Assembly (NCBI GenBank): GCA_021741065.1
Contig: JAIOYN010000012.1
Span: forward strand, 1 to 34,317
Direction of reading: 5' to 3'
DNA from: Sphingomonadaceae bacterium
GTDB lineage: Bacteria > Pseudomonadota > Alphaproteobacteria > Sphingomonadales > Sphingomonadaceae
Length of the DNA stretch: 34,317 nt
Shown here in pieces: positions 1 to 17,559 of this stretch. A program made the position numbers and the translations under genes. The notes below the pieces were generated by a model. The model did no database searches and had not been told where the DNA came from. It saw only the letters and a list, made by a program, of their open reading frames with translations. The number at the start of each line of letters is the position of its first letter. Position 1 is the stretch's first letter.

Positions 1-402
1 GCCGATATTGTCCGAAATGATCGCACGGCCAATATGGAGGCCATTGTTGTTGCCGTAAGACGAGTCACCCAAAGGAATGCCGTCCAACGTGTACCCTAGT
101 TGGTTCTGGTTGAACCCGCGGATCGACACGCGGCTTGACCATTCGTAGGTCCCGAAGGGATCGGCGGATTGAAAATTGACGCTGGGAAGTTTCTCGATTG
201 CTTTCAACGGGCTTGTACCGGCGGCGAGAATCAAGAGCTCTTTATTGCCAACCTCCTGCACCTGGCGTGTTTCGCCTTTTCCGAACACAACAATTTCAGC
301 TTCGGCCGAGTCGACCGCAGTCGGCGTATTTGCCTGCTGTGCCATAGCAGGCGCTGAAAAAAAGGCCGCTCCCGCCAAAAGCATTGCTGATATTTTACGC
401 AT
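1..402 (-). CDS. TonB-dependent receptor, N-terminal part (cut by window edge)
   Basis: The minus-strand reading frame from the ATG at 402 stays open for 134 codons to the window edge, so only the N-terminus is present. It has a signal peptide (residues 1-21, ending AMA before QQ), then a TonB-box-like AEIVVFGKGE and the start of a plug domain. The plug shows the typical pattern VSIRGFNQNQLGYTLDGIPLG followed by a serine/asparagine-rich turn. A Shine-Dalgarno AGGGAAGG lies about 7 nt before the ATG. Family role: outer-membrane active uptake of a large substrate, energised by TonB-ExbBD; the substrate cannot be read from this fragment. It diverges from the TPR gene at 626, and the shared intergenic region carries PhoB-like direct repeats facing both ways, which suggests phosphate-starvation control. 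Confidence 0.93.
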   Translation of the reverse strand, partial: MRKISAMLLAGAAFFSAPAMAQQANTPTAVDSAEAEIVVFGKGETRQVQEVGNKELLILAAGTSPLKAIEKLPSVNFQSADPFGTYEWSSRVSIRGFNQNQLGYTLDGIPLGDSSYGNNNGLHIGRAIISDNIG

Positions 403-581: not shown

Positions 582-599
582 TGTCATTAAAGTGTAATA
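582..599 (+). promoter_or_regulatory. Candidate Pho box upstream of the TPR protein
   Basis: TGTCATT (582-588), spacer AAAG, then TGTAATA (593-599) form an 11-bp-period direct repeat resembling a PhoB box. It ends about 26 bp before the ATG at 626, so the leader would be short. It is back-to-back with the minus-strand copy at 549-566, consistent with co-regulation of the divergent pair. I did not find a convincing -10 element. Confidence 0.5.
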
Positions 600-625
600 T
601 TGAGACCAGGACAAGGAGAGACGCT

Positions 626-1006
626 ATGAAAATATTGTTGTTAGGCGCTTTGGTCGCCGGAACTATTTCAGTTGCGGCACAGGCTAAGCCGGAAGCAACC
701 GGCGAAATTTCATACCCAAAGGGCTCGATCGGATATGAGGCACTGATGCGCGGCGATAATGCGCGCGCGATCTCCCAAATCACTACGAGCGCGAAGATAA
801 GTAAGCATGACCCTGCAAAACTGCTTAACCTTGGACGCGCTCACGCGCGAATGGGGCAGACCGAGCAAGCTGCGGCATATTTTAAGGCCGCGATGCAGGC
901 ACGTGATAGCGTGGACTTGGTTCTAGCCGATGGCCGCGTTATGAATTCTAAAGTTGTAGCACGCGAGGCCTTCGCCAATCTGCAAAAGCGGGTGGCAACG
1001 CGTTAA
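626..1006 (+). CDS. Small periplasmic tetratricopeptide-repeat protein
   Basis: This encodes 126 residues. The ATG at 626 is chosen over an in-frame upstream ATG at 539 because AAGGAGAG sits 6-7 nt before it and because it begins a signal peptide (MKILLLGALVAGTISVAAQA, cleavage expected after AQA). The mature protein is mainly a TPR-like helical hairpin: LLNLGRAHARMGQTEQAAAYFKAAMQA (about residues 64-90) matches the TPR pattern, and a weaker preceding repeat is possible. No catalytic motif is visible. TPR proteins mediate protein-protein contacts; the partner is unknown. It stands alone between a Pho-box-like promoter and a strong terminator, so it is probably monocistronic. Similar small TPR proteins are common in sphingomonads, but I do not recognise a named homologue. 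Confidence 0.85.
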   Translation: MKILLLGALVAGTISVAAQAKPEATGEISYPKGSIGYEALMRGDNARAISQITTSAKISKHDPAKLLNLGRAHARMGQTEQAAAYFKAAMQARDSVDLVLADGRVMNSKVVAREAFANLQKRVATR

Positions 1007-1131: not shown

Positions 1132-1154
1132 CTGTCACATTAATGAAGTAAAAT
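1132..1154 (+). promoter_or_regulatory. Weak Pho half-site and possible -10 before the lipoprotein gene
   Basis: CTGTCAC (1132-1138) is a good PhoB half-site, and TAAAAT (1149-1154) is a plausible -10 located 10 nt downstream of it, the spacing seen in Pho promoters. The partner half-site 11 bp up or downstream is poor, so this is much weaker than the arrays at 582 and 5738. It would leave a leader of roughly 140 nt before the ATG at 1304. Confidence 0.3.
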
Positions 1155-1303
1155 ATTCTCTCAACTGCAATGTTATGCGCACACTGTTGTCATAGGTGGT
1201 GCCTAATCGCATCGTTATCAACTAGTGGGGACTCTTTTGATTCGTCGCTGCTGCGTTGTAACTGCCCATAGCCGGGCAAGCCATTTTGTTGCGGAGATTA
1301 AGA

Positions 1304-2890: not shown

Positions 2891-2934
2891 TGGGGTGAGG
2901 TGCGGGCTTGACCAAGCACCTCACCCCATTTTTA
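2891..2934 (+). terminator. Intrinsic terminator between lipoprotein and TonB receptor genes
   Basis: A perfect 13-bp stem, TGGGGTGAGGTGC (2891-2903) pairing with GCACCTCACCCCA (2916-2928), has a 12-nt loop and is followed by TTTTTA. It begins 15 bp after the lipoprotein stop codon and ends only 21 bp before the receptor ATG. The receptor must therefore be transcribed by read-through or from a promoter that I cannot see in the 80-bp gap. Confidence 0.9.
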
Positions 2935-2955
2935 CATCATAAAAAGGGAATGAAA

Positions 2956-5649
2956 ATGTTGAAGCCATTGGGGGCAATCAGCCTGTTGCTTTTAACGTCC
3001 GCACTTGTTGCGCCATCGTTGGCATTCGCGCAAAGCGCTGAGCCTGCGGTAGCCGAATCAGCTGAACCAGCGCCAGAAGGCGCAGCCTCCGAAACGGCGG
3101 AACAGCCAGTGGAAGAGGAGGAGGTTGATGTCTCCTTTGGCGGTGAGGAAATTGTCGTCCGCGGATATCTGGATCGCAATATTTCAAAAAATGCAGCGCA
3201 GGTTGTTTCAGTTCTGTCTTCCGCAGATATTGAGCGGACGGGCGAAGGCGACATCGCTGGCGCGCTCTCTCGCGTAACAGGCTTAAGCGTGGTTGGTGGC
3301 GGCTTTGTTTATGTGCGTGGTTTGGGTGATCGCTACTCGTTGGCTTTGCTGAACGGTTCGCCCTTACCGAGCCCTGAGCCTTTGAAGCGCGTTGTTCCCC
3401 TTGATCTGTTCCCGACAAGCGTTATCGCGTCGTCCCTTGTACAAAAAACCTATTCCGCGAACTTCCCTGGCGAATTCGGCGGCGGTGTGATCAACCTTAC
3501 CACCAAGGCTATCCCGCGCGAAACATTCCTGACGTTGAGCGCGGACGCCAGCGGCAACAGCGAAACAACCAATAAGCTTGGCTATACTTATTACGGCAGT
3601 TCTCTGGACTGGACCGGTTTCGACAATGGGAACCGTAATCTGGCGCCAGCGCTCGCCGCATTTCTTGCAAGTGGTAAGCGTATCAGCACCGGCGGTGTCG
3701 ACACGAAGCCCATCGCAGGTCAGTTGGTGACAGGACGCAATGCCGTTGTGCAGCGCGACAATAATCTGCCCGCAAATGGCTCGGCAAACATTTCGGGTGG
3801 CACTAATTTCGAGATTGGTGACGATGCCACCATGGGTATTTTGTTCAACGCAGGTTATAGTAATAAGTGGCGCACACGCGACACGTTGCAGCAAACCGCG
3901 TCGACCCGTGATTTGGGCCAAAAAGAATCAGATTTTCAGAAGGTTATTACAGACAACCGCTTGGTTGTTAACGGCTTACTTGGCTTCGGCATTGAAGCGG
4001 GCGAGCAAAAAGTGCGTTGGACCAACATATTTATTCGCGACACCCTGAAACAAGCACGGTTGGGGATTGGTACACGGCAATCGACATCGCCTACTGCTTC
4101 ACTGCTACAGCAGGACACTGCTTGGTATGAACGGCAGTTGATTAACTCGCAACTTGTCGGCGAATTTAAGCTTTCGCCTGACGTCAATTTAAGCTTCCGT
4201 GCTGGATACGCCAATTCAAAACGTGAGGCGCCAGATGAACTGAGCTTTGAATATTATCGAAGCAATCAGGCGTCCGATCCATTTGGCGCGGTCTTCATCA
4301 ACCGCCTGGATAACGGTCAGCGGGGCAGCGCTGAGGTGAGTTATTCTGACCTCAGTGAGGATCTCTGGTCGGGAAGCGCCGATCTGTCCTTCAAGATCAC
4401 GCCAGACATGACCGGCACCTTTGGCTATGCCTATTCCGACACGGTCCGTCGCACAGAACGCCGCGATTTTCAGTTTGTAGCACCGGGTGGCACGCCGATT
4501 ACTTCTGCACTATTTCGGCCAGACTTCTTGCTGCAGCCTGATGTCATCGATTTCTATAATATCGCACTGATCGATTCTAATGAAGCGAACCCGGTATTTG
4601 ACTCTGCATTGGTTACGCACGGCGCTTATGGACAAATTCAGGCATTTATTACGCCGGAAATCAGCTTCAATGTTGGCGTGCGTTATGAAAAAGCAGAGCA
4701 GACGGTCTCGCCGGTTCAAGTTTTTACCGTGCCGACCGCGTCTTTGGCTTCCACCAGTCTCAATGAATCATATTGGTTGCCGGCTGCTACATTGACTTGG
4801 GATATCAATGACCAGATGAAGTTCCGTATGAGCGGTTCAAAGACAATTGCGCGTCCGCAATTTCGCGAACTGATTTTCCAGAATTTCTATGACACCGATT
4901 CCAACCGCTTGTTCCGTGGGAACCCGTTGTTGACCGATAGCCAACTTTACAACGCCGAAGCGCGCTACGAGTGGTATTTTGACCGGGAACAGCGTTTCAC
5001 GATTGCTGGCTTCTTCAAGCGTATCGATAAGCCAATCGAGTCTTTCTCAAGTTTCGATCAAAACTCGGTCATTACCAGCTTCGCCAACGCACCGAAGGCC
5101 GATTTATACGGTGTGGAAATCGAAACGCAGAAATATTTCGACCTGTCGGGTTTAGGTGAAGAGGGTTTCTTCTCGACGCGCCGCGCTGTGGCAATCGCCA
5201 ACTATACCTACACGCAGTCGAAATTGAGCGTGAAGGCAGGGGACTCGGTTGCAGTGTTCAACGCATCATCAACCAGCGCGCTCGATTTCTTCACGGACGG
5301 CTCTCCATTGACGGGGCAAGCCGACCATCTGGTCAATCTGCAACTTGGGTTGGAAGATACAGAGCGCCTATCGCAACAGACGATATTGCTTAGCTATTCC
5401 ACTGATCGAGTTACAAGCCGTGGCGCCTCTGGTCAGCCAGACATTAAGGAAAAGCCAGGGATTCAGTTGGATTTCGTCGCCCGCGAGGGCTTTAAGCTTG
5501 GCGGCACAGAAGGCGAGTTGAAGTTTGAAGTGCGCAACCTGACCAACACAAAATATCAGGAACTGCAGGAAAACGGTGAGAATAAAATTTTCTACAACCG
5601 CTACAAGCAGGGCATAAGCGCCTCAATAGGATTTGAAATCAACTTTTAA
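2956..5649 (+). CDS. TonB-dependent outer-membrane receptor
   Basis: This encodes 897 residues, a normal length for the family. The ATG at 2956 is chosen over 2950 because AAAGGGA ends 6 nt before it. The signal peptide runs to about residue 25 (AFA before Q), followed by an acidic Glu/Pro/Ala-rich linker (about 27-60). A TonB-box-like EEIVVRG (64-70) is followed by a plug domain with VVGGGFVYVRGLGDRYS, GSPLPSPEP and the strong plug motif FPGEFGGGVINLTTK. The remainder is a 22-strand-type barrel with alternating aromatics, ending in the typical aromatic C-terminus ASIGFEINF. Role: TonB/ExbBD-driven uptake across the outer membrane; the substrate is unknown. Its position between a lipoprotein and the T2SS suggests that it takes up a product released by secreted proteins, possibly phosphate-containing compounds. 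That is inference. Confidence 0.95.
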   Translation: MLKPLGAISLLLLTSALVAPSLAFAQSAEPAVAESAEPAPEGAASETAEQPVEEEEVDVSFGGEEIVVRGYLDRNISKNAAQVVSVLSSADIERTGEGDIAGALSRVTGLSVVGGGFVYVRGLGDRYSLALLNGSPLPSPEPLKRVVPLDLFPTSVIASSLVQKTYSANFPGEFGGGVINLTTKAIPRETFLTLSADASGNSETTNKLGYTYYGSSLDWTGFDNGNRNLAPALAAFLASGKRISTGGVDTKPIAGQLVTGRNAVVQRDNNLPANGSANISGGTNFEIGDDATMGILFNAGYSNKWRTRDTLQQTASTRDLGQKESDFQKVITDNRLVVNGLLGFGIEAGEQKVRWTNIFIRDTLKQARLGIGTRQSTSPTASLLQQDTAWYERQLINSQLVGEFKLSPDVNLSFRAGYANSKREAPDELSFEYYRSNQASDPFGAVFINRLDNGQRGSAEVSYSDLSEDLWSGSADLSFKITPDMTGTFGYAYSDTVRRTERRDFQFVAPGGTPITSALFRPDFLLQPDVIDFYNIALIDSNEANPVFDSALVTHGAYGQIQAFITPEISFNVGVRYEKAEQTVSPVQVFTVPTASLASTSLNESYWLPAATLTWDINDQMKFRMSGSKTIARPQFRELIFQNFYDTDSNRLFRGNPLLTDSQLYNAEARYEWYFDREQRFTIAGFFKRIDKPIESFSSFDQNSVITSFANAPKADLYGVEIETQKYFDLSGLGEEGFFSTRRAVAIANYTYTQSKLSVKAGDSVAVFNASSTSALDFFTDGSPLTGQADHLVNLQLGLEDTERLSQQTILLSYSTDRVTSRGASGQPDIKEKPGIQLDFVAREGFKLGGTEGELKFEVRNLTNTKYQELQENGENKIFYNRYKQGISASIGFEINF

Positions 5650-5673
5650 GGGAATTACAACCCCCCAACTTTT

Positions 5674-5711
5674 GGCGGCACGTTGCAATCAACGTGCCGC
5701 CTTTGTTTTGT
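5674..5711 (+). terminator. Intrinsic terminator after the TonB receptor
   Basis: A perfect 12-bp stem, GGCGGCACGTTG (5674-5685) pairing with CAACGTGCCGCC (5690-5701), has a CAAT tetraloop and is followed by TTTGTTTTG. It insulates the receptor from the gsp operon, which has its own Pho-box-like region immediately downstream. Confidence 0.93.
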
Positions 5712-5737
5712 GTATCATCCAAGCAATAGGCATGAAT

Positions 5738-5781
5738 TGTCATTAAAATGTCATTTTAAATTCACTTTTAAGTCACAACAG
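5738..5781 (+). promoter_or_regulatory. Tandem Pho-box array upstream of gspC
   Basis: Four half-sites occur at exact 11-bp spacing: TGTCATT (5738), TGTCATT (5749), ATTCACT (5760) and AGTCACA (5771). The first two form a near-perfect PhoB box with an AAAA spacer, and the next two are degenerate but in phase. The array ends 44 bp before the gspC start and lies just after the terminator of the preceding gene. It is the only obvious promoter region for the 13-gene T2SS operon, so phosphate-starvation induction of secretion is the simplest inference. No clear -10 was identified. Confidence 0.72.
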
Positions 5782-5825
5782 CGTCTTAGTCCGTCATCAA
5801 CGGGCGGAATCGCCAAGGGGGTTTT

Positions 5826-6644
5826 GTGGCTGGATCATTGGCTGAAAGGGTTAGGGCGCAATCACGTGCGTTTTCTCTGCGGCCGATCGGCAATGTTCTT
5901 ATTGCCTTGATTTTTATACTTTTGGTTATTCAAGTAGCCCGTCTTTTTTGGGTCGTTGTTACACCGGTCGGTCCGCTTACTGGTTGGCGCGCGCCATCGG
6001 TCAATCTTGTATCATCGTCCGCTCGGCTTGCGCTCTTCAGCGGCTTTGATCCTTTTTACCGCAGCGATACGTCCGCTGCTTCCACGCAAAATGTCACATC
6101 GTTAAATCTGGTTTTGTTTGGCGTGCGCGCAAATGAAAGCTCGGGCGGCGGATCCGCCATCATTGCCGGAGAGGATGGCGTGCAGAATAGTTTTGCCGTG
6201 GGAGAAGAGGTCGCGCCGGGCGTTACCTTGGACGCGGTTGCCTTTGACCATGTGATATTGTCGCGCGGCGGGGTGAAGGAATCGCTGTATTTGGATCAGT
6301 CTGTTCCGGCGGAAACAGTCAACCCGTCTGAAGTCGCTCCGCAAGCCGCACCCGCTGCGTCGGCCACGGGAGGACTGAATGCCCAAACGCTGCAAAAAGC
6401 TATTGGCTTTGCACCCCGTAACGAAGGGGGCAGGGTAACCGGTCTTGTTTTGAAAGCTCAGGACGACGGAACCATGCTTCGGCTTGCTGGATTTCAGGCT
6501 GGCGATGTCGTTGTTGCCGTCAATGGACGTCCCGTTTCATCCGCCACTGATGTTATAGCCCAATTCCGACCCGGAGCACGTATCAGCGTCGAGGTCGAAC
6601 GCGGCGGCTCAAAGGTCCCCATCGCTCTAAATCTGGAACAATAG
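5826..6644 (+). CDS. gspC: Type II secretion system protein C
   Basis: This encodes 272 residues from a GTG start, supported by AAGGGGG 5 nt upstream. The layout is that of GspC: a short cytoplasmic N-terminus, one inner-membrane helix (about 22-45), a periplasmic homology region (about 60-155, with LVLFGVRAN and the NSFAVGEEV pattern), a Pro/Ala-rich linker (about 163-180) and a C-terminal PDZ domain (about 185-270, with RLAGFQAGDVVVAVNGRPV). The family role is to connect the inner-membrane platform to the secretin GspD and take part in substrate recruitment. It is the first gene of the operon, directly downstream of the Pho-box array. Its TAG shares the final G with the GTG of gspD. Confidence 0.93.
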   Translation: MAGSLAERVRAQSRAFSLRPIGNVLIALIFILLVIQVARLFWVVVTPVGPLTGWRAPSVNLVSSSARLALFSGFDPFYRSDTSAASTQNVTSLNLVLFGVRANESSGGGSAIIAGEDGVQNSFAVGEEVAPGVTLDAVAFDHVILSRGGVKESLYLDQSVPAETVNPSEVAPQAAPAASATGGLNAQTLQKAIGFAPRNEGGRVTGLVLKAQDDGTMLRLAGFQAGDVVVAVNGRPVSSATDVIAQFRPGARISVEVERGGSKVPIALNLEQ

Positions 6645-8830
6645 TGATCCGTAATTTCTCCTTATGGTTGGCGTGCAGCACGCTTATTTTGACAACGCCG
6701 GTGACGGCGCAGCAGACTTTGAACGTCCGAGACGCCGATATCCGTGCCTTTGTGCAGGATGCTGCGCGCGTCACGGGCCAAACCTTCATCGTTGATGGTC
6801 GTGTTAGCGGTAAGGTGTCGGTTGTAACAGACAGGCCCTTGTCGCGTTCCGAATATTTCGAAGTCTTTTTGTCTACTTTGCGCGCAAACGGCTTGGTCGC
6901 CATTCCCATGCGCGGCGGCGGATATCGCATTCAGCCGTCCGATGGTGCTGCAACGCAGCCAACACGCGTCGGCAGCAAAGCTGAGTCTGCTAGCCAGTTT
7001 GTAACCGAAGTGTTCCGCTTGCGGTCGATTGATGCAACCACGGCGGTTGAAACGCTGCGTCCGTTAATCAGCAGGGAAGGCTCGCTCACGGCTAACCGTA
7101 GCGCAAATAGCCTTGTGGTGGCTGATTATGCCGACAATATCCGCCGGATCCGCGATCTCATCCGCCAGATTGACCGCGACAGCGCCGCCACGCAGGTTGT
7201 TACGCTCGACAATGCTGGCGCACGCGAAATTGCAACGGCATTGCAAGGATTAGCTGGCCAGGGCGGCGGCGAAGGAGCGCGTGCGCCGGTTTCGATCGCT
7301 GCCATCGACAGTAGCAACGCAATCGCGTTGCGCGGTGATCCAACATCAGTCGCTCGCTTTGCCGAAATGGCGAAGCAATTAGACGCCCGTGCGCAATCTG
7401 GCTCGGAAATTCGTGTTTACCGACTTGAGTATGCGAATGCCGAAACTTTGCTCAAAACGGTCGAGTCGCTAATCGGCGGACAGAGCGGTTCTACGCGCAG
7501 CGGCGATATGGCGCCCGTGGCTGCATCTGCGAACGGCGGAGCACCAGCTGCTGCCGTAGCGCCCATTGTTGCGACATCTGCTGGCACGGCTACGAACGGC
7601 ATAGGGGGGCGCGGGCCTATTGTGGTTACGCGTTATGAAGGCACAAATGCCCTCATCGTTGCTGCCAATCCCGACGTACAACGCAGCCTGGGCGAATTGA
7701 TCCGGCAATTGGATACACGTCCTGAACAAGTTCTGGTCGAAGCCATTGTAGTGGAAATCGGCAATGAGGCCGCCAAAAAGCTTGGTGTGCAATTCCTCGT
7801 TGGAGGCAAGGACGCGCCCTTTGCCGCGACCAATTACTCCAATGCCTCGCCCAACATCCTAACCATAGCAGGGGCCGTCGGGGCAGAGGAGTTGACGCGC
7901 ACGACGACGACCGTAAATGGTAACACCACCACCACCGCGACCAACAGCGCCTTGGGCGACGGTCTGCAAGAAGCGGCTGCTGCATCTATTTTAAGCGCAA
8001 CGGGCGGCTTTGGCGGCTTTGCCCTTGATATCGGCAATAATGCGATTTTCGGTACCATTATCAACGCAATTGCAGCAGACACGGAATCCAACCTTTTGGC
8101 GACGCCGCACATTGTGACTTTGAACAACCAAAAGGCGAAATTCCTGGTGGGCCAGGAAGTGCCAGTCAGCACGGGCGAACAATTGTCTGCAAACTTCGAA
8201 AATGCATTCCGCACCGTGCAGCGGCAGGAGGTCGGCATCAAGCTTGAGGTCACGCCACAGGTCAATGCACAAGGCGATGTGAAGCTGTTCCTCAAGCAAG
8301 AAGTGTCGAGCGTTGCAGGCCCAGTATCTTCGCGATCCAGCGACCTTGTCCTCAACAAACGCGAATTCGAGACCACGTTGACCGTTGGCGACGGGCAATT
8401 GTTGGCGATAGGCGGGTTGCTTAACGATGACGAACGCCGCACGATTGAGCGTATCCCGTTGCTCAGCGACATACCTCTCGTTGGTGAGCTGTTTAAGTCA
8501 CGTAGCCGCAGTCGCAGCAAGACCAACCTAATGGTGTTCATCCGGCCTACAATATTGCGGAGCCGGGAAGATGGTGATCAACTGACCGCGCGTCGTTATG
8601 ATTATGTGCGCGACATGCAGAGGGTGCGTAATCCCGATGTCGAACCGAGTATCGATGAACTGCTACGCGACTATATGGGCGCCACACTGCCGACCGAACC
8701 AAATGCGCGGGCAAGCGACATCATGATCGGTGTAGATGGCAATATCACGCGGCCGCCAGTTGCTGGTCCGCTTAAACCCGCAGATGTGCCTGCCAGCTCC
8801 ATATCGACACCTAGCGGGGATGGACAATAA
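6644..8830 (+). CDS. gspD: Type II secretion system secretin GspD
   Basis: This encodes 728 residues from a GTG start that overlaps the gspC stop by 1 nt. The signal peptide is residues 1-22 (cleavage after PVTA). An N0 domain (about 23-95) is followed by repeated N1-N3 KH-like domains (TEVFRLRSIDATTAVETLRPLI, TQVVTLDNAGAREIATALQ, IRVYRLEYANAETLLKTVESLI). The secretin core (about 400-640) contains LLATPHIVTLNNQKAKFLVG, the VPVS motif, and RIPLLSDIPLVGELFKS, with a C-terminal tail after it. It forms the outer-membrane multimeric channel. An Ala/Gly/Ser-rich insertion interrupts N3 at about residues 281-325. No pilotin gene is recognised nearby, and the protein has no lipobox. The TAA overlaps the gspE ATG. 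Confidence 0.97.
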   Translation: MIRNFSLWLACSTLILTTPVTAQQTLNVRDADIRAFVQDAARVTGQTFIVDGRVSGKVSVVTDRPLSRSEYFEVFLSTLRANGLVAIPMRGGGYRIQPSDGAATQPTRVGSKAESASQFVTEVFRLRSIDATTAVETLRPLISREGSLTANRSANSLVVADYADNIRRIRDLIRQIDRDSAATQVVTLDNAGAREIATALQGLAGQGGGEGARAPVSIAAIDSSNAIALRGDPTSVARFAEMAKQLDARAQSGSEIRVYRLEYANAETLLKTVESLIGGQSGSTRSGDMAPVAASANGGAPAAAVAPIVATSAGTATNGIGGRGPIVVTRYEGTNALIVAANPDVQRSLGELIRQLDTRPEQVLVEAIVVEIGNEAAKKLGVQFLVGGKDAPFAATNYSNASPNILTIAGAVGAEELTRTTTTVNGNTTTTATNSALGDGLQEAAAASILSATGGFGGFALDIGNNAIFGTIINAIAADTESNLLATPHIVTLNNQKAKFLVGQEVPVSTGEQLSANFENAFRTVQRQEVGIKLEVTPQVNAQGDVKLFLKQEVSSVAGPVSSRSSDLVLNKREFETTLTVGDGQLLAIGGLLNDDERRTIERIPLLSDIPLVGELFKSRSRSRSKTNLMVFIRPTILRSREDGDQLTARRYDYVRDMQRVRNPDVEPSIDELLRDYMGATLPTEPNARASDIMIGVDGNITRPPVAGPLKPADVPASSISTPSGDGQ

Positions 8831-10386
8831 TGACCGATCCGCAAGGCGCGTTAGAACAAACAGGCGCGACTGGCGCCGAACCTGACGCAGTGGTTAACGG
8901 TGCCCAAACCACGCCATTGCTGGACCTGCCTTATGCCTTTGCCAAGGCACACGGCTTGGTTTTGCGTTATGAGAACAATGACCGTTTGATCGTCGCCATG
9001 CGCGAAGGCGCGGATCCTCTAATGCTGCTCGAAGTGCGGCGCTATCTCGCGATGCCTTTTGACGTTGAGTTAGTCGATAGCCAGACCTTTGACCGGCATC
9101 TGTCCGACCATTATGCCATGGACGGAAGCGCAGCGGCCATGGCTGGTTCGATTGGCCCTAACGACGGCGATCTCCTATCGGATATGTTACCAAGTGTCGA
9201 TGATTTGCTCGACAGCGCAGATGACGCGCCGGTTATTCGGTTGATTAACGGTGTCATTGCAGAGGCTGTAAGGCAAGGTGTTTCGGATATTCATATAGAG
9301 CCGTATGAAACTGGCCTGGTGATACGCATGCGCGCCGATGGCGTGTTGCAGGAACGGCTTCGACTCCCCGCTAACGTCGCGCCTGTTGTTGTTAGCCGCA
9401 TAAAGGTCATGGCGCGTCTGGACATTGCGGAGCGCCGTATTCCGCAGGATGGCCGTATTGGCCTGACTCTTGGCGGGAAGATGGTCGATGTTCGCGTGTC
9501 GACCTTACCCAGTCGTGCTGGCGAGCGCGTCGTCATGCGTATTTTGGATAATGAAAATGCCGGGATTTCGCTTGATCTGTTGGGCATGTCCGATGAGACC
9601 CTTAAAATCTTGCGCGAGGCGTTAGCTGAACCCAATGGTATCATCTTGGTTACGGGACCCACCGGATCGGGTAAGACCACCACGTTATATGCTGGTCTGA
9701 AGCGGCTTAACGACGGTTCCCGGAACATATTGACGGTGGAAGACCCGGTGGAATATGCTGTTGAAGGCATTGGTCAGACGCAGGTGAATGCTAAGGTTGG
9801 TATGACTTTTGCCGCTGGTCTGCGTGCGATTTTGCGGCAGGATCCTGATGTCGTCATGGTCGGCGAAATCCGCGACCGTGAAACCGCAGATATTGCTGTA
9901 CAAGCGGCGCTTACCGGCCATTTGGTGCTGACCACGGTACACACAAATGATGCGTTGGGTGCAATTACACGTATGCGGGATATGAAGGTGGAGCCGTTTT
10001 TGCTCGCTTCGACCTTACGCGCCGTCATTGCACAACGGCTTGTGCGCCGCTTGTGCCCCCATTGCCGCCAAACGGTTCAGGCCGACGGCAACGCAGCATC
10101 ATTGCTTGGTTTTGATAAAGGTACCGCGGTTTATAAAGCCGTTGGTTGCCCTGAATGCAACAACACTGGCTTTTTGGGTCGCATTGGTGTGTTTGAGGCT
10201 GTTCGTGTGGATGAAACCATCCGGCGCTTGATTAATGACGGCGGCGATGAAGCCATATTGGCGCGACATGCGTTTGTGAACCAACCCAATTTAAGTGCCG
10301 CGGCACGCAAATTGGTGCGTAGCGGGGATACCACGCCAGAGGAGGCCATACGCATTTCACGCCGTGAAGACGTCATTGATGCCTGA
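8830..10386 (+). CDS. gspE: Type II secretion ATPase GspE
   Basis: This encodes 518 residues, starting at the A of the gspD stop codon. An N-terminal N1E/N2E region (about 1-130) precedes the secretion ATPase core. Visible motifs are Walker A GPTGSGKTTT (276-285), the Asp box ILTVEDPVEY, Walker B ILRQDPDVVMVGEIRD, the His box LTGHLVLTTVHTND, and a zinc tetracysteine (C409, C412, C440, C443). It is the hexameric cytoplasmic ATPase that powers pseudopilus assembly through GspL and GspF. All catalytic motifs are intact, so the operon's motor should be functional. The paralogous PilB is excluded mainly by operon context, because the whole gsp set surrounds it. Confidence 0.97.
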   Translation: MTDPQGALEQTGATGAEPDAVVNGAQTTPLLDLPYAFAKAHGLVLRYENNDRLIVAMREGADPLMLLEVRRYLAMPFDVELVDSQTFDRHLSDHYAMDGSAAAMAGSIGPNDGDLLSDMLPSVDDLLDSADDAPVIRLINGVIAEAVRQGVSDIHIEPYETGLVIRMRADGVLQERLRLPANVAPVVVSRIKVMARLDIAERRIPQDGRIGLTLGGKMVDVRVSTLPSRAGERVVMRILDNENAGISLDLLGMSDETLKILREALAEPNGIILVTGPTGSGKTTTLYAGLKRLNDGSRNILTVEDPVEYAVEGIGQTQVNAKVGMTFAAGLRAILRQDPDVVMVGEIRDRETADIAVQAALTGHLVLTTVHTNDALGAITRMRDMKVEPFLLASTLRAVIAQRLVRRLCPHCRQTVQADGNAASLLGFDKGTAVYKAVGCPECNNTGFLGRIGVFEAVRVDETIRRLINDGGDEAILARHAFVNQPNLSAAARKLVRSGDTTPEEAIRISRREDVIDA

Positions 10387-11596
10387 ATTTGCTTATCACG
10401 CCATCGACCCGGACGGACAAGAGCGGCGCGGCCGGATATCCGCGGCTAATGATGATCTTGCACGCGAAGCATTGGTATCGAAAAAACTCTATATCGTGAG
10501 CGTTGCGCCTGCTGAAGTGCGTGCGTCGGCCTTTGCTAATCTGCCGCTGAAACGGCAGCCACGGTTGAACGCAAAGCAGCTAACATTGTTCACGCGGCAA
10601 TTATCCTCATTGGCACAAGTATCGCCATTGGAAGAGGCGCTAAGGACGATTAGCCGGCAAAGCGAACAACCCCATGTACGGCAAATATTGACCGGTGTTC
10701 ACACGGGTGTGGTGGAAGGTCAGCGTTTGTCCGACGCTATGCGGCGCGAAAGCAACAGCTTCCCCCCCTTGTACCGAGCAATGATCGCTGCAGGGGAGGG
10801 GGCAGGCACACTGCCGCTCATCACGGAACGTCTTGCTGTGCTGCTCGAACGGCAGGCGGAAATGCGTGGTAAGTTGATTGGCGCGCTCGCTTATCCTGCA
10901 ATCCTGTCGCTTGTCGCCTTATTGGTCGTAATGGGGCTTATGGTCTCCGTTGTGCCGCGCGTGGTTGAACAATTTGACAACGTGGATCAGCAATTGCCGC
11001 TGATAACGCAGGTGGTAATTGGCATTTCTGCATTTTTGGCGAGTTATTATTGGGTGCTAATCATCGTCGCCCTGCTCGGCGCGTTGGTTTTTGCGCAAGC
11101 CCTAAAACAGCCATCTTTCCGTTTGGCGGTGGACCGCAATATCCTGCGCATTCCTGTGCTTGGGAAGCTGTTGCGTAACTTGCATGCCGCGCGCATGGCG
11201 CGAACACTGGCCACAATGGTTGCAAGTCGCTTGCCTTTGTTGGAGGGCTTGCGCCTGACGGGCGGCACCATTCGCAATAAAGTGCTCTCTGGGGCCAATG
11301 ACGAAATTGTGGAAGCCGTGCGTAGCGGGGGTAGCCTGTCCGGTGCGATGCGAGCCAGCGGCGTTTTTCCTCCTTTGCTTGTATATTTGACGGCCAGCGG
11401 CGAGAGCGCAGGGCAGTTGGATATCATGCTGGAACGTGCCGCCGAATATCTGGAGCGCGAATTTGATACTTTCACCAGCACCGCTTTGTCGCTGCTGGAA
11501 CCCTTGATCATTGTCGCGATGGGTGGCGTGGTCGCGGTCATCATATTGGCAATATTGCTGCCCATTCTTCAACTTCAGAACCTAACGGGACTTTAA
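10379..11596 (+). CDS. gspF: Type II secretion inner-membrane platform protein GspF
   Basis: This encodes 405 residues. The ATG at 10379 gives the canonical GspF start (MPEFAYHAIDPDGQERRGRI) and overlaps the end of gspE by 8 nt; the frame is open further upstream but inside gspE. It has two duplicated GspF cytoplasmic domains (about 70-195 and 270-390), each with the FTRQLSSLAQ...LEEALR or ARMARTLATM...LLEGLRL pattern. Three transmembrane helices lie at about 170-190, 220-242 and 372-395. The family role is the integral-membrane platform protein that contacts GspE and GspL and receives pseudopilin subunits. The length is typical. Confidence 0.96.
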   Translation: MPEFAYHAIDPDGQERRGRISAANDDLAREALVSKKLYIVSVAPAEVRASAFANLPLKRQPRLNAKQLTLFTRQLSSLAQVSPLEEALRTISRQSEQPHVRQILTGVHTGVVEGQRLSDAMRRESNSFPPLYRAMIAAGEGAGTLPLITERLAVLLERQAEMRGKLIGALAYPAILSLVALLVVMGLMVSVVPRVVEQFDNVDQQLPLITQVVIGISAFLASYYWVLIIVALLGALVFAQALKQPSFRLAVDRNILRIPVLGKLLRNLHAARMARTLATMVASRLPLLEGLRLTGGTIRNKVLSGANDEIVEAVRSGGSLSGAMRASGVFPPLLVYLTASGESAGQLDIMLERAAEYLEREFDTFTSTALSLLEPLIIVAMGGVVAVIILAILLPILQLQNLTGL

Positions 11597-11599
11597 AAT

Positions 11600-12073
11600 A
11601 TGCTCCGCTTATTTTTCAATCTTTTCAACGACACCAACCGATCACCAGCGCGGTTCCGCCGCAAGGCAGTTCAGGCACACCGCAACGGTTTCACCTTAGT
11701 TGAAATGATGGTGACCTTGTTCATTTTGGCGCTACTGACGACGGTCGTGGCCATCAACGTGCTACCAAATCAGGATAAGGCCATGGTGCAAAAGGCGAGG
11801 GCTGATATCGCGGTTTTAGGACAGGCGATGGAAACCTACCGCCTTGATAATTTGACCTACCCAGACGCAGGTGCGGGTTTGCAAGCATTGGTTACGCCGC
11901 CGACGACCGGAATGCGGAGCGAAGGCTATATCAAGAAATTGCCTATGGACCCTTGGAATCGTCCTTATCAGTATAGCATGCCTGGAAAGAGCGGCGCTTT
12001 TGATATCTATTCGCTGGGTGCCGATGGCGCGCCTGGCGGTGAGAATGACAATGCCGACATTTACGGCGACTAA
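11600..12073 (+). CDS. gspG: Major pseudopilin GspG
   Basis: This encodes 157 residues. The type-IV prepilin motif is G30 before FTLVEMM, so the conserved Glu5 is present. The rest is a hydrophobic N-terminal helix and a globular domain with the hallmark DPWNRPYQYSMPGKSGAFDIYSLGADGAPGGENDNADI, the calcium-binding loop region of GspG. The leader of 30 residues is long for the family, but no nearer start exists; the only later Met codons are within VEMM. Its Shine-Dalgarno is weak. It polymerises into the periplasmic pseudopilus after GspO cleaves the leader. It starts 3 nt after gspF. Confidence 0.96.
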   Translation: MLRLFFNLFNDTNRSPARFRRKAVQAHRNGFTLVEMMVTLFILALLTTVVAINVLPNQDKAMVQKARADIAVLGQAMETYRLDNLTYPDAGAGLQALVTPPTTGMRSEGYIKKLPMDPWNRPYQYSMPGKSGAFDIYSLGADGAPGGENDNADIYGD

Positions 12074-12539
12074 GCCGTCCCTTCATAAAATCGTTCCTGA
12101 TAATGCGCGCGGCTTCAGTTTGGTTGAACTGATGGTGGTGTTGTTCATCATCGGTATTGCAAGCACTGCCGTTATCATGACCGTGCGCTCGCCCGAACGT
12201 AGCGTGCGGGATGAGGCGGAACAATTTGCCGCCCGGGTTGCCGCCTTGCGCGATAACGCCATATTGCAATCGCGCACTATGGCGGTCACTGTGCGTCCGT
12301 CGGGCTATGGTTTTGAAACGCGCAGTGAAGGGAACTGGGTTTCGTTGTCCGAGGCGCCATTTTCAACAACCAACTGGAAAAGTGGTACAACGGTTCAAAT
12401 GTCCGGCGCGCGGCAAATGCGGATAGCCTTCGACAGCACTGGTTTGCCGTCGAGCGCGGCCAATATCGCGATCAAACATGACAATGTAACCGTCACGCTA
12501 GACCTCGCCGCAACCGGAGATATCCGCGTTGTCCGTTAA
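12051..12539 (+). CDS. gspH: Minor pseudopilin GspH
   Basis: This encodes 162 residues. The ATG at 12051 is chosen because GGTGAG lies about 8 nt upstream and the resulting 21-residue leader ends at G21 before FSLVELMVV. It overlaps the end of gspG by 23 nt. A hydrophobic helix (22-42) is followed by a GspH/FimT-type beta-rich domain with RDEAEQFAARVAALRDNAILQSRTMAV and a conserved G-F-E. The family role is a minor pseudopilin between the GspG shaft and the I-J-K tip. An alternative ATG at 12045 would put the Shine-Dalgarno too close. Confidence 0.92.
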   Translation: MPTFTATKPSLHKIVPDNARGFSLVELMVVLFIIGIASTAVIMTVRSPERSVRDEAEQFAARVAALRDNAILQSRTMAVTVRPSGYGFETRSEGNWVSLSEAPFSTTNWKSGTTVQMSGARQMRIAFDSTGLPSSAANIAIKHDNVTVTLDLAATGDIRVVR

Positions 12540-12912
12540 ACCTTCATTGCCGCGCAATGGCTTCACGCTATTGGAGATTATGGTTGCACTGGCGATTTTT
12601 AGCCTCGCGGCCTTAGCAATGGTTCGCTTGCAGGGGTATTCTGTGCGCTCGACATCTAATTTGGGCGACAGCAGCATGGCTTGGCAAGTGGCGCGGAACG
12701 TGGCCGTGGAAATATTGTCCAACCCAACCCCGCCAACTCTTGGAGAAACGCGCGGCGAAGAGTCAAACGGCGGTCAGAATTGGACATGGACAGCCACAAC
12801 AAGGTCCACCGATGACAGCCGCCTCGTAACCGTTGAAATCGATGTGGTGGGGACCGGCAATGCCGCACTGCGCAGGGCGCGCCTTACGATTGCAAGGCCA
12901 GTTGAACAGTGA
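12529..12912 (+). CDS. gspI: Minor pseudopilin GspI
   Basis: This encodes 127 residues from a TTG start that overlaps gspH by 11 nt. The leader MSVKPSLPRNG is cleaved after G11 before FTLLEIMVALAIFSLAALAMV, so the prepilin motif is complete. The remaining domain has the GspI-like LGDSSMAWQVARNVAVEIL and a Trp-rich strand (NWTWTATT). The family role is the core of the GspI-J-K complex that caps and nucleates the pseudopilus. TTG is the only credible start that keeps a leader of normal length. Four bases overlap with gspJ. Confidence 0.92.
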   Translation: MSVKPSLPRNGFTLLEIMVALAIFSLAALAMVRLQGYSVRSTSNLGDSSMAWQVARNVAVEILSNPTPPTLGETRGEESNGGQNWTWTATTRSTDDSRLVTVEIDVVGTGNAALRRARLTIARPVEQ

Positions 12913-13553
12913 CCAAATTACGAGATTCAGAGGCAGGGTTTACCCTAATTGAGTTGCTCGTGGCGCTTGCGATCTTTGCGCTGATTTCGGTGGCTGGTGT
13001 CATGCTTCTGCGTTCCGGCAGCGATACCCAAATCGCCTTGAAAAAGCGCTTGGAAGAGATGGCATTGTCGCATCGTTTGGCCAATAGCCTTGAAGGCGAT
13101 TTGGCGCAGGTGATCGCCCGGCCTGTGCGAGATCAATCCGGCCAGCCTATCCCTGCTTTCACCCAAGGAGAGGCCAGCATTCCCGGCGCGCTATTTGGTT
13201 TTGTCCGGGCAGGGTGGTCAAATTTTGATGCCGCACCCAGGGCAGGGATCCAGCGCGTGGCTTATGTGTTGGAAGGCGGCGCGCTCAAGCGGTTAAGTTG
13301 GCCCATGCTGGACGGCACAACTCCCTCAGACGCCGCGGTTTTATTGGAGGATGTAACGTCTGCAACAGTCGAATTTCGCGATGATGCCGGTATTTGGCGT
13401 GATGATTGGACTGCGACAGATGCGGACGCTTTGCCACGCGCCATTGCCTTAACTATCAATTTGGCGCGTAAGCCCGAACAACGCATGCTTTTCCTCGTCG
13501 GGCCACAAATACGCATCCTTCCACCGAGCATTGAAACAGGCGTTGCGGAATGA
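12909..13553 (+). CDS. gspJ: Minor pseudopilin GspJ
   Basis: This encodes 214 residues from a GTG start in a GTGA overlap with the gspI stop. The leader of 10 residues ends at G10 before FTLIELLVALAIFALISVAG. The globular domain carries GspJ features: the R-L-E-E-M...HRLANSLEGDLAQVIARPVRD stretch after the helix, and later VAYVLEGGALKRLSWPMLD and a C-terminal strand series. The family role is a tip pseudopilin that binds GspI and GspK. The 4-nt overlaps on both sides point to translational coupling and equal stoichiometry for I, J and K. Confidence 0.93.
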   Translation: MTKLRDSEAGFTLIELLVALAIFALISVAGVMLLRSGSDTQIALKKRLEEMALSHRLANSLEGDLAQVIARPVRDQSGQPIPAFTQGEASIPGALFGFVRAGWSNFDAAPRAGIQRVAYVLEGGALKRLSWPMLDGTTPSDAAVLLEDVTSATVEFRDDAGIWRDDWTATDADALPRAIALTINLARKPEQRMLFLVGPQIRILPPSIETGVAE

Positions 13554-14536
13554 TTCCGCAAAAGCCTTCAGAGCGCGGTGCGGCCTTGCTGTCGGTTTTG
13601 CTTATGGTGGCAGTGCTGGCCGTGATTGCGGCTACGACTCTTGACCGGCTAAGCTTGTCGAGCAAATTGTCGGCTAATGGAAACGCGCTGGCACAGGCAC
13701 GGATGTTTACATACGCGACCGAGGCGATTGCCGCTGCGCGAATTGAGGACTTGGTAGCCCGCGATGCCGCACAAACGACGTTGGCCGGTGATTGGCTCGG
13801 TAAAGCGCAAGTTATTCCCATTCCGATTGGGTCTGCGACTGCTTCCGTGCGCGATGCAGGAAACTGTTTCAATCTCAACAGCTTGGTGACTGAGACGGAT
13901 GGCCAATATTTTGCCAGCGCAGCTGGGCAGGAACAGATGACGTCGTTGATGGTCGTTTTGGGCATCAACGAAAACGCCGCGAGAGCCGTTGCTGCGGCGG
14001 GCGCTGACTGGGCGGATAGCAATATCACGCCTTTACCAAATGGCGTGGAGGATGATGGTTATCGCGCGGTCGCTGCGCCATATCTTGCGGCGAACAGGCT
14101 TTATGCGCATCCAAGCGAATTGCGCGCGGTCAAGGGGGTAACCCCTGCTATTTATGCGAAGTTACAGGATTGGATCTGCGCGCTTCCTGATCCGGCTTTA
14201 TCGCCGCTGAACGTCAACACCTTGTTGCCTGAACAAGCACCATTGTTGGCAATGCTATTCCCGCCCGGTAAAATGAATTTGACCTTCGCGCGCAGCTATC
14301 TCGCCAAGCGGCCATCAAATGGCTATGGCAGCCTCATCCGATTCTGGGCGGCGCCGGAAATTGCTGATCTGGAGCCGTCTCCTCTAGTTCAAGGGCAGGT
14401 AAAACTGACAAGCAATTACTTCCTTTTGAACACAATAGTGTCTTTTGGCGAACTCAAGCTTGCTGGACAGTCGATGATTGTCGCGTCGCCTGCGCCTGCG
14501 CGCGTTGTCTGGCGCAGTTGGGGGGAAGAGGAATGA
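13550..14536 (+). CDS. gspK: Minor pseudopilin GspK
   Basis: This encodes 328 residues. The ATGA overlaps the gspJ stop. The leader ends at G10 before AALLSVLLMVAVLAVIAATTLD; the Glu5 of other pseudopilins is absent, as is normal for GspK. The large alpha-helical insertion expected in GspK is present, with FNLNSLV followed by an acidic and Asn-rich region, LYAHPSELRAVKGVTPAIYAKLQDWICALP and the conserved LSPLNVNTLLPEQAPLLAML. The family role is the bulky tip of the pseudopilus. The length and composition fit the family well. Confidence 0.94.
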   Translation: MIPQKPSERGAALLSVLLMVAVLAVIAATTLDRLSLSSKLSANGNALAQARMFTYATEAIAAARIEDLVARDAAQTTLAGDWLGKAQVIPIPIGSATASVRDAGNCFNLNSLVTETDGQYFASAAGQEQMTSLMVVLGINENAARAVAAAGADWADSNITPLPNGVEDDGYRAVAAPYLAANRLYAHPSELRAVKGVTPAIYAKLQDWICALPDPALSPLNVNTLLPEQAPLLAMLFPPGKMNLTFARSYLAKRPSNGYGSLIRFWAAPEIADLEPSPLVQGQVKLTSNYFLLNTIVSFGELKLAGQSMIVASPAPARVVWRSWGEEE

Positions 14537-15618
14537 CATTGGTCATTACCCGTTTTCCGACATCTGAGCGGGACGACCCATCGGTATTTCGGGTCGCCGA
14601 GGGCGTTTGGCAGGAGGCAGGTGCTCTCTCCAACTTCGTGCCGACGGTTGACGACATTACTGTCATGGCGCTGGTAGCGCCGGAGGATGTCCGGTGTCAT
14701 TGGTTGACGCTGCCCGATATGCAAGGACGTCAGGCGGAAAGTGTGGCGAAACTGCGTGCTACCGAACAATCGCTTGGTCTTGTCCACTGCAGCGCTGGTG
14801 CAGATTATGACGACGTTGTTGCCACAGCAACTATCGCGTCGGAAGTTATGCAGTTTGGGTTAGATATCCTGAAAGCGCGCGGGCTAAATCCCGACATCGT
14901 CCTGCCCTTTGCATTGTCGCTGTCGGTCCATTCGGATGGCATATCCAAGGCGGAAATGGACGGCCTGTCCGTTCTGCGCGGCGAGCAATTTGCAATACCT
15001 GACGACGCCGTGCTGCGGGATATGTTCATTGGCGATGCACCTATAGAAACCATCGATGCCGACTCCATTCGATCCATGCTGCTTTCCGCCAGCGCCGCGC
15101 CATTGCTGAACTTGCGTGAAGGCAAATTCGCAAAACGGGAGCGGGCAAATTGGATGACCGCAGAGCAAAAGATTTGGGTGAAGCGTCTTTTGATTGCGTT
15201 TCTTATCGTGACAACGATTCTTGCTCTTGCGACCTTGGCGAAATATTGGGCCGCGACTGCGTCTGAAAATGGCGCAGCATTGGCTGCGGCACAGAAGATT
15301 GATCCAGCTATACAGGACATTGATCAGGCCGAGAGCATGCTCGCCGCATCGCTTAATCGTCAGGGGAAAACGCAAGGTGATTTTGCGCAACTTTCTGCCG
15401 GGCTATGGCGTAGTGTTAAAGCATCGCCGAATGTATCCGTACGGGAATTACGATATACGCCGGACGGAATTTTGACCGTGGTTCTGGCTGCCCCCACGTC
15501 GGATAACATCAATAAGGCTCTTGTTGCCATTCAGCAGGACGGGTTCCGCATCACGGCAACACCCCGTCAAGACACGACCGGAGCGACATTGGTCGACATG
15601 ACAGTGAGGATGCCGTGA
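14533..15618 (+). CDS. gspL: Type II secretion protein GspL
   Basis: This encodes 361 residues. The ATG at 14533 overlaps the gspK stop as ATGA and has GGAAGAGG immediately upstream, so it is preferred to the in-frame TTG at 14518. The N-terminal cytoplasmic actin-like domain (about 1-210) is divergent. One transmembrane helix (about 217-237) leads into a periplasmic coiled segment and a ferredoxin-like domain (about 285-361, VSVRELRYTPDGILTVVLAAPTSDNINKALVAI). GspL anchors the GspE ATPase to the membrane and pairs with GspM. Identification rests on topology, operon position and the C-terminal domain; the N-terminal half alone would be hard to assign. Confidence 0.9.
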   Translation: MTLVITRFPTSERDDPSVFRVAEGVWQEAGALSNFVPTVDDITVMALVAPEDVRCHWLTLPDMQGRQAESVAKLRATEQSLGLVHCSAGADYDDVVATATIASEVMQFGLDILKARGLNPDIVLPFALSLSVHSDGISKAEMDGLSVLRGEQFAIPDDAVLRDMFIGDAPIETIDADSIRSMLLSASAAPLLNLREGKFAKRERANWMTAEQKIWVKRLLIAFLIVTTILALATLAKYWAATASENGAALAAAQKIDPAIQDIDQAESMLAASLNRQGKTQGDFAQLSAGLWRSVKASPNVSVRELRYTPDGILTVVLAAPTSDNINKALVAIQQDGFRITATPRQDTTGATLVDMTVRMP

Positions 15619-16094
15619 TTGCGGCGATACGCTTATGGTTTGCTGCCCTGACGCGGCGGGAGCAACGGCTCGTTGGTGTCGCGGGCACCCTGACCGCTTT
15701 TCTAGTGGCGATTTTCGGAATTTTACTTCCCGTTCTGTCAACCATTGATCAGGCAAAGATAGATCATGACGAGGCGGTCCAGCGCCGCGGGCGCATAATC
15801 GCAACGGTGAATGCAGCCCAGCAGCAGGAAAAGGGGCCTCGTTCCACAGCAACGGCAGATATTGATCTATTGATTACCCAAAGTGCGGCGGAAAAGGGAT
15901 TTGATCTCATCAAATCGGGTAATAGCGCACCAGGACAAGTCAGTTTTCGGATTGATCAAGCACGTGCACCAGCATTACTCGTGTGGTTGACCGAGCTCGA
16001 GGGCCAGGATGTTGCTGTGCGCAGTGTCGCCTTGCGACCCGGCGCAAACAGCACCGTAACGGTGGAAGCGCAATTGCAGATGAGCGCACCATGA
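15615..16094 (+). CDS. gspM: Type II secretion protein GspM
   Basis: This encodes 159 residues from a GTG in a GTGA overlap with gspL. The short cytoplasmic N-terminus has the GspM-typical WFAALTRREQRLV, a single membrane helix lies at about 20-41, then a periplasmic coiled coil (about 44-75, DQAKIDHDEAVQRRGRIIATVNAAQQQ) and a ferredoxin-like fold to the end. It is an inner-membrane partner of GspL. The sequence is poorly conserved in the family, so the call relies on topology, size and position between gspL and gspN. Confidence 0.9.
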   Translation: MIAAIRLWFAALTRREQRLVGVAGTLTAFLVAIFGILLPVLSTIDQAKIDHDEAVQRRGRIIATVNAAQQQEKGPRSTATADIDLLITQSAAEKGFDLIKSGNSAPGQVSFRIDQARAPALLVWLTELEGQDVAVRSVALRPGANSTVTVEAQLQMSAP

Positions 16095-16786
16095 AGCGGC
16101 GCTTTGTTGTGGCTTCGGCGGCAGCTTTGGCTGCTGCGGCAATTGTGTTTATGCCCTTGCGGACGATCGTGGCTGAAGATGCGATAACCGCACGCAAGGT
16201 TGATGGTATCATTTGGGACGGTTCTATCCGTGACTTGCGCCTTGGCAAAGTAGCCGTGGGCGACGTCAATGCACGTTTGTTGTTCTCGCCGCTGTTCATG
16301 GGCCGGGCGGAGATCTTGCTATCGCGCGGCAACTCCCCATTTGTGCCAGGGATAAACGGGTCTGTATCCCGCGGTATAAGTGGTGTGTCGGTCAGGAATC
16401 TGTTCGCAACTTTGCCAGTAGGCGTGCTGCTCGCGCCGTTTCCTGCGGAGAATATCCAGTTTGAAGGCTTTTCTGCGCGTTTTGCCGATGGTAAGTGCAT
16501 GAATGCGGGCGGGCAAGTCCGGCTGACTTTGTCCGACACTATACCGGGGCTTAACTTACAGAATGGTATGCTCGGTCAACCCCGCTGCGACGGTGCGCAG
16601 TTGTTACTGCCATTGGTCAGCCAATCCGCGATGGAGCGCGCGGACATCCGCGTGTCGGCAGATGGGAGTTACACCGTGACTGTTATGCTGAACGCCGACC
16701 TCGGCGGCCAAGCGGCAGTGATGAGCCTTACTGGCTTCCGTCCCGTAGATGGCGGCTACCGCCTATTGCAAAAGGGCCGGTTCTGA
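16091..16786 (+). CDS. gspN: Type II secretion protein GspN
   Basis: This encodes 231 residues. The ATG at 16091 overlaps the gspM stop by 4 nt; an upstream in-frame extension lies inside gspM and is rejected. An N-terminal membrane anchor (about 5-27) is followed by a beta-rich periplasmic domain with IIWDGSIRDLRLGKVAVGDVNARLLFSPL, a repetitive amphipathic pattern typical of GspN/AsmA-like proteins. Two cysteines (in KCMNAGG and QPRCDG) may form a periplasmic disulfide. GspN is present in only some T2SS operons and its role is not settled. Position and fold support the assignment. Confidence 0.86.
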   Translation: MKRRFVVASAAALAAAAIVFMPLRTIVAEDAITARKVDGIIWDGSIRDLRLGKVAVGDVNARLLFSPLFMGRAEILLSRGNSPFVPGINGSVSRGISGVSVRNLFATLPVGVLLAPFPAENIQFEGFSARFADGKCMNAGGQVRLTLSDTIPGLNLQNGMLGQPRCDGAQLLLPLVSQSAMERADIRVSADGSYTVTVMLNADLGGQAAVMSLTGFRPVDGGYRLLQKGRF

Positions 16787-16791
16787 TCACG

Positions 16792-17559
16792 TTGCTGGGG
16801 TCATTGGGCGATATGTTATTAGCTTTGCCCTTTTGGTATCACGTCATGTTCGCCATGATATTCGGTACAATCTGGGGTAGCTTTATTGCGGCGTTGTGCA
16901 GTCGCTGGCCACGCGGCGAAAGGGTGTCGGACGGTCGGTCGCATTGTGATGATTGCCAGACGCCGCTTGGGGCAAAAGACCTCGTGCCCATCCTGTCTTA
17001 TCTATGGCTGCGCGGCAAATGCCGACATTGTGGGCATTCCATAGGCATAAGCGTACTCTATATTGAACTTGCTTCTGCCGCGATCGGCTTGTTTGCAGTC
17101 TTATTCTTGTCGGGTGGTCAAGCACTGGCGGCGGCGGTATTCGGTTGGCTGCTACTCCCGCTCGTCATCCTCGATTATCAGAAGCTGTGGTTACCCAATC
17201 AACTGGTTTTGGCGCTGGCAATAGCAGGCGTCTGCGCCGGCGCGTTTCTAACGCCTGAGATTAACTGGCTAGACCGCATTTTGGGCGGGATTTTTGGATT
17301 TCTCGCATTGGAAGCTATCCGGCAAGCCTTTCGCAAGATGCGGCAGGTGGAAGGCATGGGCGGTGGCGACCCAAAATTGTTCGGAGCCATTGGCCTCTGG
17401 CTCGGTTGGCAGGGATTGCCGATGACTTTGCTTTTGGCAACTCTATTTGGGTTTTTGTGTATTGCGCTCGCCTTTGCGCTGTCCAGAAAAAGCCCCCAAC
17501 AGCTACCTTTCGGGGCATATATGGGAATGGCGGCATTTTCTATTGTTTTGCTGGCTTAG
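16792..17559 (+). CDS. gspO: Prepilin peptidase / N-methyltransferase (A24 family)
   Basis: This encodes up to 255 residues. The start is uncertain: a TTG at 16792, 5 nt after gspN, or an ATG at 16813 (residue 8); neither has a strong Shine-Dalgarno. The N-terminal domain has the zinc-binding tetracysteine C52/C55/C77/C80 (HCDDCQ and KCRHCG), a feature of bifunctional peptidase-methyltransferases. The aspartyl protease residues are D128 (VILDYQKLWLP) and D193 in the GGGD motif (GMGGGDPKLF). About seven to eight membrane helices are expected. It cleaves the leaders of GspG-K and methylates the new N-terminus. It ends the T2SS operon and is followed by a modest hairpin. Confidence 0.93.
   Translation: MLGSLGDMLLALPFWYHVMFAMIFGTIWGSFIAALCSRWPRGERVSDGRSHCDDCQTPLGAKDLVPILSYLWLRGKCRHCGHSIGISVLYIELASAAIGLFAVLFLSGGQALAAAVFGWLLLPLVILDYQKLWLPNQLVLALAIAGVCAGAFLTPEINWLDRILGGIFGFLALEAIRQAFRKMRQVEGMGGGDPKLFGAIGLWLGWQGLPMTLLLATLFGFLCIALAFALSRKSPQQLPFGAYMGMAAFSIVLLA

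Follow-up and report, generated by a model that had tools for sequence, protein, structure and literature searches.

Pseudomonas aeruginosa has, in Hxc, a phosphate-regulated type II secretion system (T2SS), which is a separate second system with a dedicated alkaline phosphatase. Phosphate regulation is what it would share with the T2SS considered here, and its standing as a separate second system, according to its usual description, is what sets it apart. At the level of the promoter, the likeness is to pstS of Escherichia coli, where the half-sites TGTCAT, TGTCAT, TTACAT (the degenerate third) and TGTCAC follow one another at 11-bp steps and are succeeded, after 10 nt, by TATTTT. That promoter serves phosphate uptake and not secretion, and its units are slightly nearer to the consensus than those described below for gspC (22 versus 21 of 24 positions).

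The closest described locus is that of Caulobacter crescentus, where the lipoprotein gene elpS (cc0170) is expressed under phosphate starvation and release of its product requires the T2SS (PMC2996285). Expression of the Caulobacter T2SS was termed constitutive in that 2010 paper, which gave a 1.7-fold increase in poor medium, and the system was placed in the PhoB regulon in 2024 (PMC11208175). As far as the available text of these two papers goes, control by PhoB of the T2SS next to elpS has been reported in Caulobacter before, and a promoter array is described in neither. Our search of the open-licence literature returned no report of a sphingomonad T2SS under Pho control, the Caulobacter paper of 2010 being the only relevant one. 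Here we describe an array of PhoB-type half-sites ahead of the T2SS operon of a freshwater bacterium related to Sphingorhabdus.

Organization of the T2SS locus

The window, that is, the whole stretch of 34,317 nucleotides analysed, has its nearest named relatives among Sphingorhabdus and Sphingomonadales assemblies. Its T2SS operon begins with gspC (5826–6644, forward strand), which encodes T2SSC and PDZ domains, and continues on the same strand with gspD to gspN and the prepilin peptidase gene gspO (6644–17559). The secretin, ATPase, platform and pseudopilin genes that mark a T2SS follow in order; GspH scored above the Pfam and below the NCBIfam cut-off. The thirteen gsp genes placed downstream of the array by the original prediction are thus present and co-directional. 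The same prediction had a terminator isolating the operon from the preceding gene, and an intrinsic terminator-like hairpin with a 12-bp stem and a T-rich tail does lie at 5674–5701 (forward strand), 3' of the upstream TonB-dependent receptor gene. At gathering scores, Rfam models had no match in the window.

Upstream of the operon are, on the forward strand, an ElpS-like lipoprotein gene (1304–2875) and the TonB-dependent receptor gene (2908–5649), which occupies the place of Caulobacter cc0171. The former is named by gene order, which is that of cc0170, and by a lipobox seen by eye; it had no Pfam or NCBIfam match. In the available description of Caulobacter cc0170–cc0184, lipoprotein, TonB receptor and gspC onward stand in the same order as here, whereas gspO lies on the opposite strand there. 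Convergent with the end of the operon is an M28-family peptidase gene (17840–19408, reverse strand); its product is a candidate T2SS cargo because release of Caulobacter ElpS was ascribed to a T2SS-secreted protease.

The half-site array at the gspC promoter

Four units, TGTCATTAAAA, TGTCATTTTAA, ATTCACTTTTA and AGTCACAACAG, occupy positions 5738–5781 of the forward strand at steps of exactly 11 bp and end 44 bp before the GTG start codon of gspC at 5826. Their hexamers (TGTCAT, TGTCAT, ATTCAC and AGTCAC) form four in-phase PhoB-type half-sites that match a fourfold TGTCAY consensus at 21 of 24 positions, the departures being in units 3 (ATTCAC) and 4 (AGTCAC). When the 250-bp region upstream of gspC was simulated 5000 times with a Markov model, this score of 21 was never reached, so that the half-sites claimed by the original prediction at exact 11-bp steps ahead of gspC are borne out. 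Counted against the consensus over both strands, the site is the top four-unit array of the whole window. It also ranks first for a four-unit array with a weight matrix derived from the gspC promoters of 26 relatives, the window's own row being excluded, with a score of 25.2 compared with maxima of at most 20.7 in 200 simulated windows. Across the 1.9-Mb assembly, the sequence TGTCATNNNNNTGTCAT has a single copy, at this array.

The trinucleotide TAG at 5787–5789 (forward strand), 10 nt past the hexamer of the last half-site, is presumed from its conservation to belong to the −10 element. The array therefore has the form of a Pho box, with at least two direct TGTCAY repeats at 11-bp steps and a last half-site about 10 nt before what conservation suggests to be the −10.

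Conservation of the array among relatives

The original prediction had named the lack of 11-bp repeats in relatives as evidence against it, and the comparison, carried out at two levels, did not refute it. Among named relatives, 23 loci were fetched and two left out, L121 with only 24 bp of upstream DNA and L136 starting inside gspC. All 21 with enough upstream DNA (17 Sphingorhabdus-like and four of Sphingopyxis or Sphingobium) have the array, the best four-unit arrays ahead of gspC scoring 21.1–30.3; L129 and L130 were taken to stem from the same genomes as G137 and G192, and so do not count independently from L003 and L004. Many of these relatives have imperfect single units, unit 3 above all, and TA stands 16 bp past the start of the last unit in 21 of 21, including all 17 genus-like loci. 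In an alignment of 17 genus-like sequences, the window included, the mean majority was 0.93 in the GTCAY cores, 0.69 in the spacers and 1.00 at the TA, compared with 0.51 in the 40-bp 5' flank of the array.

At the level of the family we used the 43 best-matching gspC regions, from a search in which 149 of 199 genomes gave a match, many of them weakly and by the PDZ domain alone. A significant four-unit array was present in 31 of the 43 at p ≤ 0.01 and in 34 at p ≤ 0.05, and absent from nine. When steps of 7 to 16 were scanned on both strands, scores of at least 18 of 24 were reached in 23 of the 43 regions at step 11 on the forward strand and in none at steps 7–10 or 12–16, or on the reverse strand. 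Of 28 family arrays selected blind to the downstream bases, 20 have TAG at +16, and any other offset occurs at most twice. For two further sets, 27 of the 43 rows were kept (score of at least 16, TAG at +16), A1 comprising all 27 and A2 omitting three same-genus rows, and 26 of the 27, without the window's own, supplied the weight matrix; the invariance of TAG in these sets is uninformative, as TAG was part of the selection rule. When GspC was searched across the class (E ≤ 1e-15, at most nine candidates scored per genome), at least four other genomes of 289 gave matches. The five upstream regions obtained scored only 12–17 of 24; in one of them, L171, TAG comes after a half-site pair at the same distance.

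A trivial explanation would be repeats that arose by chance in AT-rich intergenic DNA, and the surroundings of the array are indeed AT-rich and two of its four units imperfect. The simulations, the conservation amid diverged flanks and the enrichment at step 11 only contradict it, and we regard its probability as negligible.

Occurrence of the motif at other promoters

A profile (R1) was made from 24 gspC promoters, all belonging to other genera, and searched over three whole genomes of the window's genus, with 150 of 373–452 candidates scored per genome. At least 15 matches were obtained, 13 of 15 having E > 0.01; as most are weak singly, the weight of this evidence lies in the company that the matches keep. 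The top match in the window's own genome is the pstS promoter, and the matches as a whole comprise pstS (three), gspC (two, in G137 and G192), a TonB receptor-phytase operon (two), a porin O/P gene (two), the TonB receptor beside the elpS-like gene (three), a divergent pair of response-regulator and TonB-receptor genes (two) and one site with no evident link. The window's own gspC array was not returned by this genome search, and scanning the window yielded only fragments, at 7.6 and 6.8 bits; the departure of units 3 and 4 from the consensus probably accounts for this.

Several of these sites have further features. On contig C40 of the window's genome (L158, 1225–7396), a polyphosphate kinase gene is divergent from the TonB receptor-phytase operon, which has an in-phase array in its promoter. 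Convergent to the porin O/P gene lies one for a response regulator, identified as phoB in G192; in that genome (L162, 4218–6424) the array stands ahead of the gene for the phosphate-selective porin, with TAG 18 instead of 16 bp past the start of the last unit. Also in G192 (L160), a PhoB-like response regulator (4460–5245, reverse strand), below the PhoB cut-off and with its receiver domain partly matched, is divergent from a TonB receptor gene (5368–7733, forward strand) in two parts in different frames; the intervening DNA has in-phase arrays on either strand. The PhoB-like protein is maybe a second, Pho-controlled regulator.

The pstS upstream regions of 30 genomes were scanned with one PstS match per genome, three genomes having a second match. 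Arrays exceeded the 95% null in 28 and fell below it in two, mostly with three to four units, and TA was at +16 in 21. The motif ahead of gspC thus recurs at pstS of the same genomes, as expected of a Pho box. These arrays also bear on the significance of the number of half-sites. The original prediction took two half-sites as usual for Pho boxes and read the extended array as a sign of strong or graded control. Family pstS promoters mostly have three to four and that of E. coli has four, so that four half-sites are a normal design, and a customary one in this family, and length by itself lends no support to strong or graded control.

Neighbouring promoters

In-phase sites are also found at the other genes of the locus. 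Ahead of the elpS-like gene (1133–1206, forward strand) the array is longer than at gspC, with six in-phase positions at 11-bp steps (1133, 1144, 1155, 1166, 1177 and 1188), followed after 10 nt by TAA (1204–1206). Its best units are TGTCAC at 1133, TGCAAT at 1166 and TGTCAT at 1188, those at 1155 and 1177 are degenerate, and its first four positions score only 11.9 with the weight matrix. A GTCAY unit, 10 nt and TA are found at this promoter in 16 of 16 genus-like loci, three of them read from the alignment. The third (ATTCTC) and fifth positions are fairly conserved and not PhoB-like.

The 126-aa small TPR-like protein gene (626–1006, forward strand; weak TPR matches) is preceded by a PhoB-type half-site pair, TGTCATTAAAG and TGTAATATTGA, at 582–603 (forward strand). 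It shares one intergenic region with a divergent TonB-dependent receptor gene (1–402, reverse strand; plug domain), truncated by the contig end, and the opposed sites at 577–534 on the reverse strand form an in-phase array (TGCAAC, TGTCAT, TGTAAT and a poor last unit, ACTCAA) followed by TAG at 528–526. With a pair score of at least 14.8, 11 of the 13 loci scanned show the TPR pair; the opposed pair is seen in seven of 13, to which L134 is added by its four-unit score. In G137 (L164, 2370–5953, reverse strand) a Pfam scan identified a type I phosphodiesterase/nucleotide pyrophosphatase gene after the divergent receptor, which points to organic phosphate; in G192 the ORF next to the receptor is of the same length. 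The presence of the same kind of sites at the elpS-like, TPR and divergent TonB receptor genes suggests that this locus works as an island for scavenging phosphate.

The regulator

Genes for phoR, pstS, pstC, pstA, pstB, phoU and phoB are found in this order on contig C11 of the window's genome, phoR and phoB being truncated by the contig ends; the assignments were made from ORF reading, with added support for PstS and PhoB. No protein of this genome, whose PhoB is truncated, passed the PhoB cut-off. The PhoB piece is identical to the PhoB of the relative G192 at 92 of 93 residues, and this whole protein scored 340 bits with TIGR02154, above the NCBIfam cut-off of 296. It shares 48% identity with E. 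coli PhoB, with the segment RTVDVHIRRLRKAL, which we take to be the recognition helix, identical in both. PhoB and PhoR are therefore encoded, as partial copies in the window's genome and, for PhoB, as a whole copy in G192.

Since the gspC motif is common to the promoters of pstS, the phytase operon and the phosphate-porin gene, PhoB is the likely regulator of the gspC array. Together with the conservation of the array in relatives, this supports the original reading of PhoB control of the T2SS operon. Another regulator of the OmpR family, ChvI or CenR, acting on the array would couple secretion to envelope stress instead of phosphate. The window's genome has a pair of chvI-chvG type on contig C85, named from ORFs and neighbours, and the CenR motif TGA-N8-TGA, as given in the available text of PMC9275681, reads TCA-N8-TCA on the opposite strand and is contained in the GTCA array. 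This fit, judged by eye, is partial, however, and does not account for the conserved core G and the C/A choice. The ChvI motifs TTGC-N3-GCAA of Caulobacter and GCC-N8-GCC of S. meliloti, as reported in the available text of PMC9731502, are, again judged by eye, unlike GTCAY, and the ChvI-type protein has the recognition segment RTIDSHIKRLRRKF versus RTVDVHIRRLRKAL in PhoB. The occurrence of the motif at the pstS, phytase and porin O/P promoters likewise argues against both. On the published motifs as available and these matches, ChvI and CenR were set aside as binders of the array, and we consider their involvement very improbable.

Proposed mechanism

Taken together, we consider it highly probable that these half-sites make up an extended Pho box through which phosphorylated PhoB (PhoB~P) activates gspC to gspO as one unit, within a phosphate-scavenging island. 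This reading builds on the array, its conservation and fixed geometry, the recurrence of the motif at promoters of pstS, phytase and porin genes, and the phoR-pstSCAB-phoU-phoB genes that the genome encodes. Under phosphate shortage, PhoR would phosphorylate PhoB, and PhoB~P would bind head-to-tail on the four 11-bp half-sites. The last half-site would replace the −35 element, and RNA polymerase would be recruited to a −10 element near 5787, starting 10 nt on. From there, gspC to gspO would be transcribed as a single unit, which the terminator at 5674–5701 would separate from the preceding gene. The T2SS would export or release phosphate-freeing enzymes and a lipoprotein, and TonB-dependent receptors would import the products.

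PhoB could also bind and repress, or merely fine-tune, a mainly constitutive gsp promoter, as might be read from the expression of the Caulobacter T2SS in both rich and poor medium (available text of PMC2996285). We deem this improbable, as the last half-site occupies the place of the −35 at a distance of 10 nt from the presumed −10, an activator geometry that E. coli pstS shares, and RNA-seq put the Caulobacter T2SS in the PhoB regulon (available text of PMC11208175). Judged from sequence evidence, activation by PhoB is thus the reading that we retain, and the source bacterium very probably turns on secretion when it is short of phosphate.

Implications for the family

A broader view, which we favour only slightly over its opposite, is that the T2SS of Sphingomonadaceae is largely a dedicated phosphate-starvation arm governed by a rigid Pho code. 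Under this code, four to six in-phase positions, corresponding to two to three PhoB dimers, would end exactly 10 nt before the −10, and such arrays would replace the −35 at gsp, elpS, pstS and TonB-receptor genes.

The findings carry PhoB control of a T2SS beyond Caulobacter, where it was reported, into another family of Alphaproteobacteria, at the promoter level and with sites defined to the base. They suggest that the cargo of the T2SS in freshwater sphingomonads is best sought under phosphate limitation. The family Pho-promoter rule of an in-phase array, 10 nt and TA can be used to find phosphate-starvation genes without a known function.
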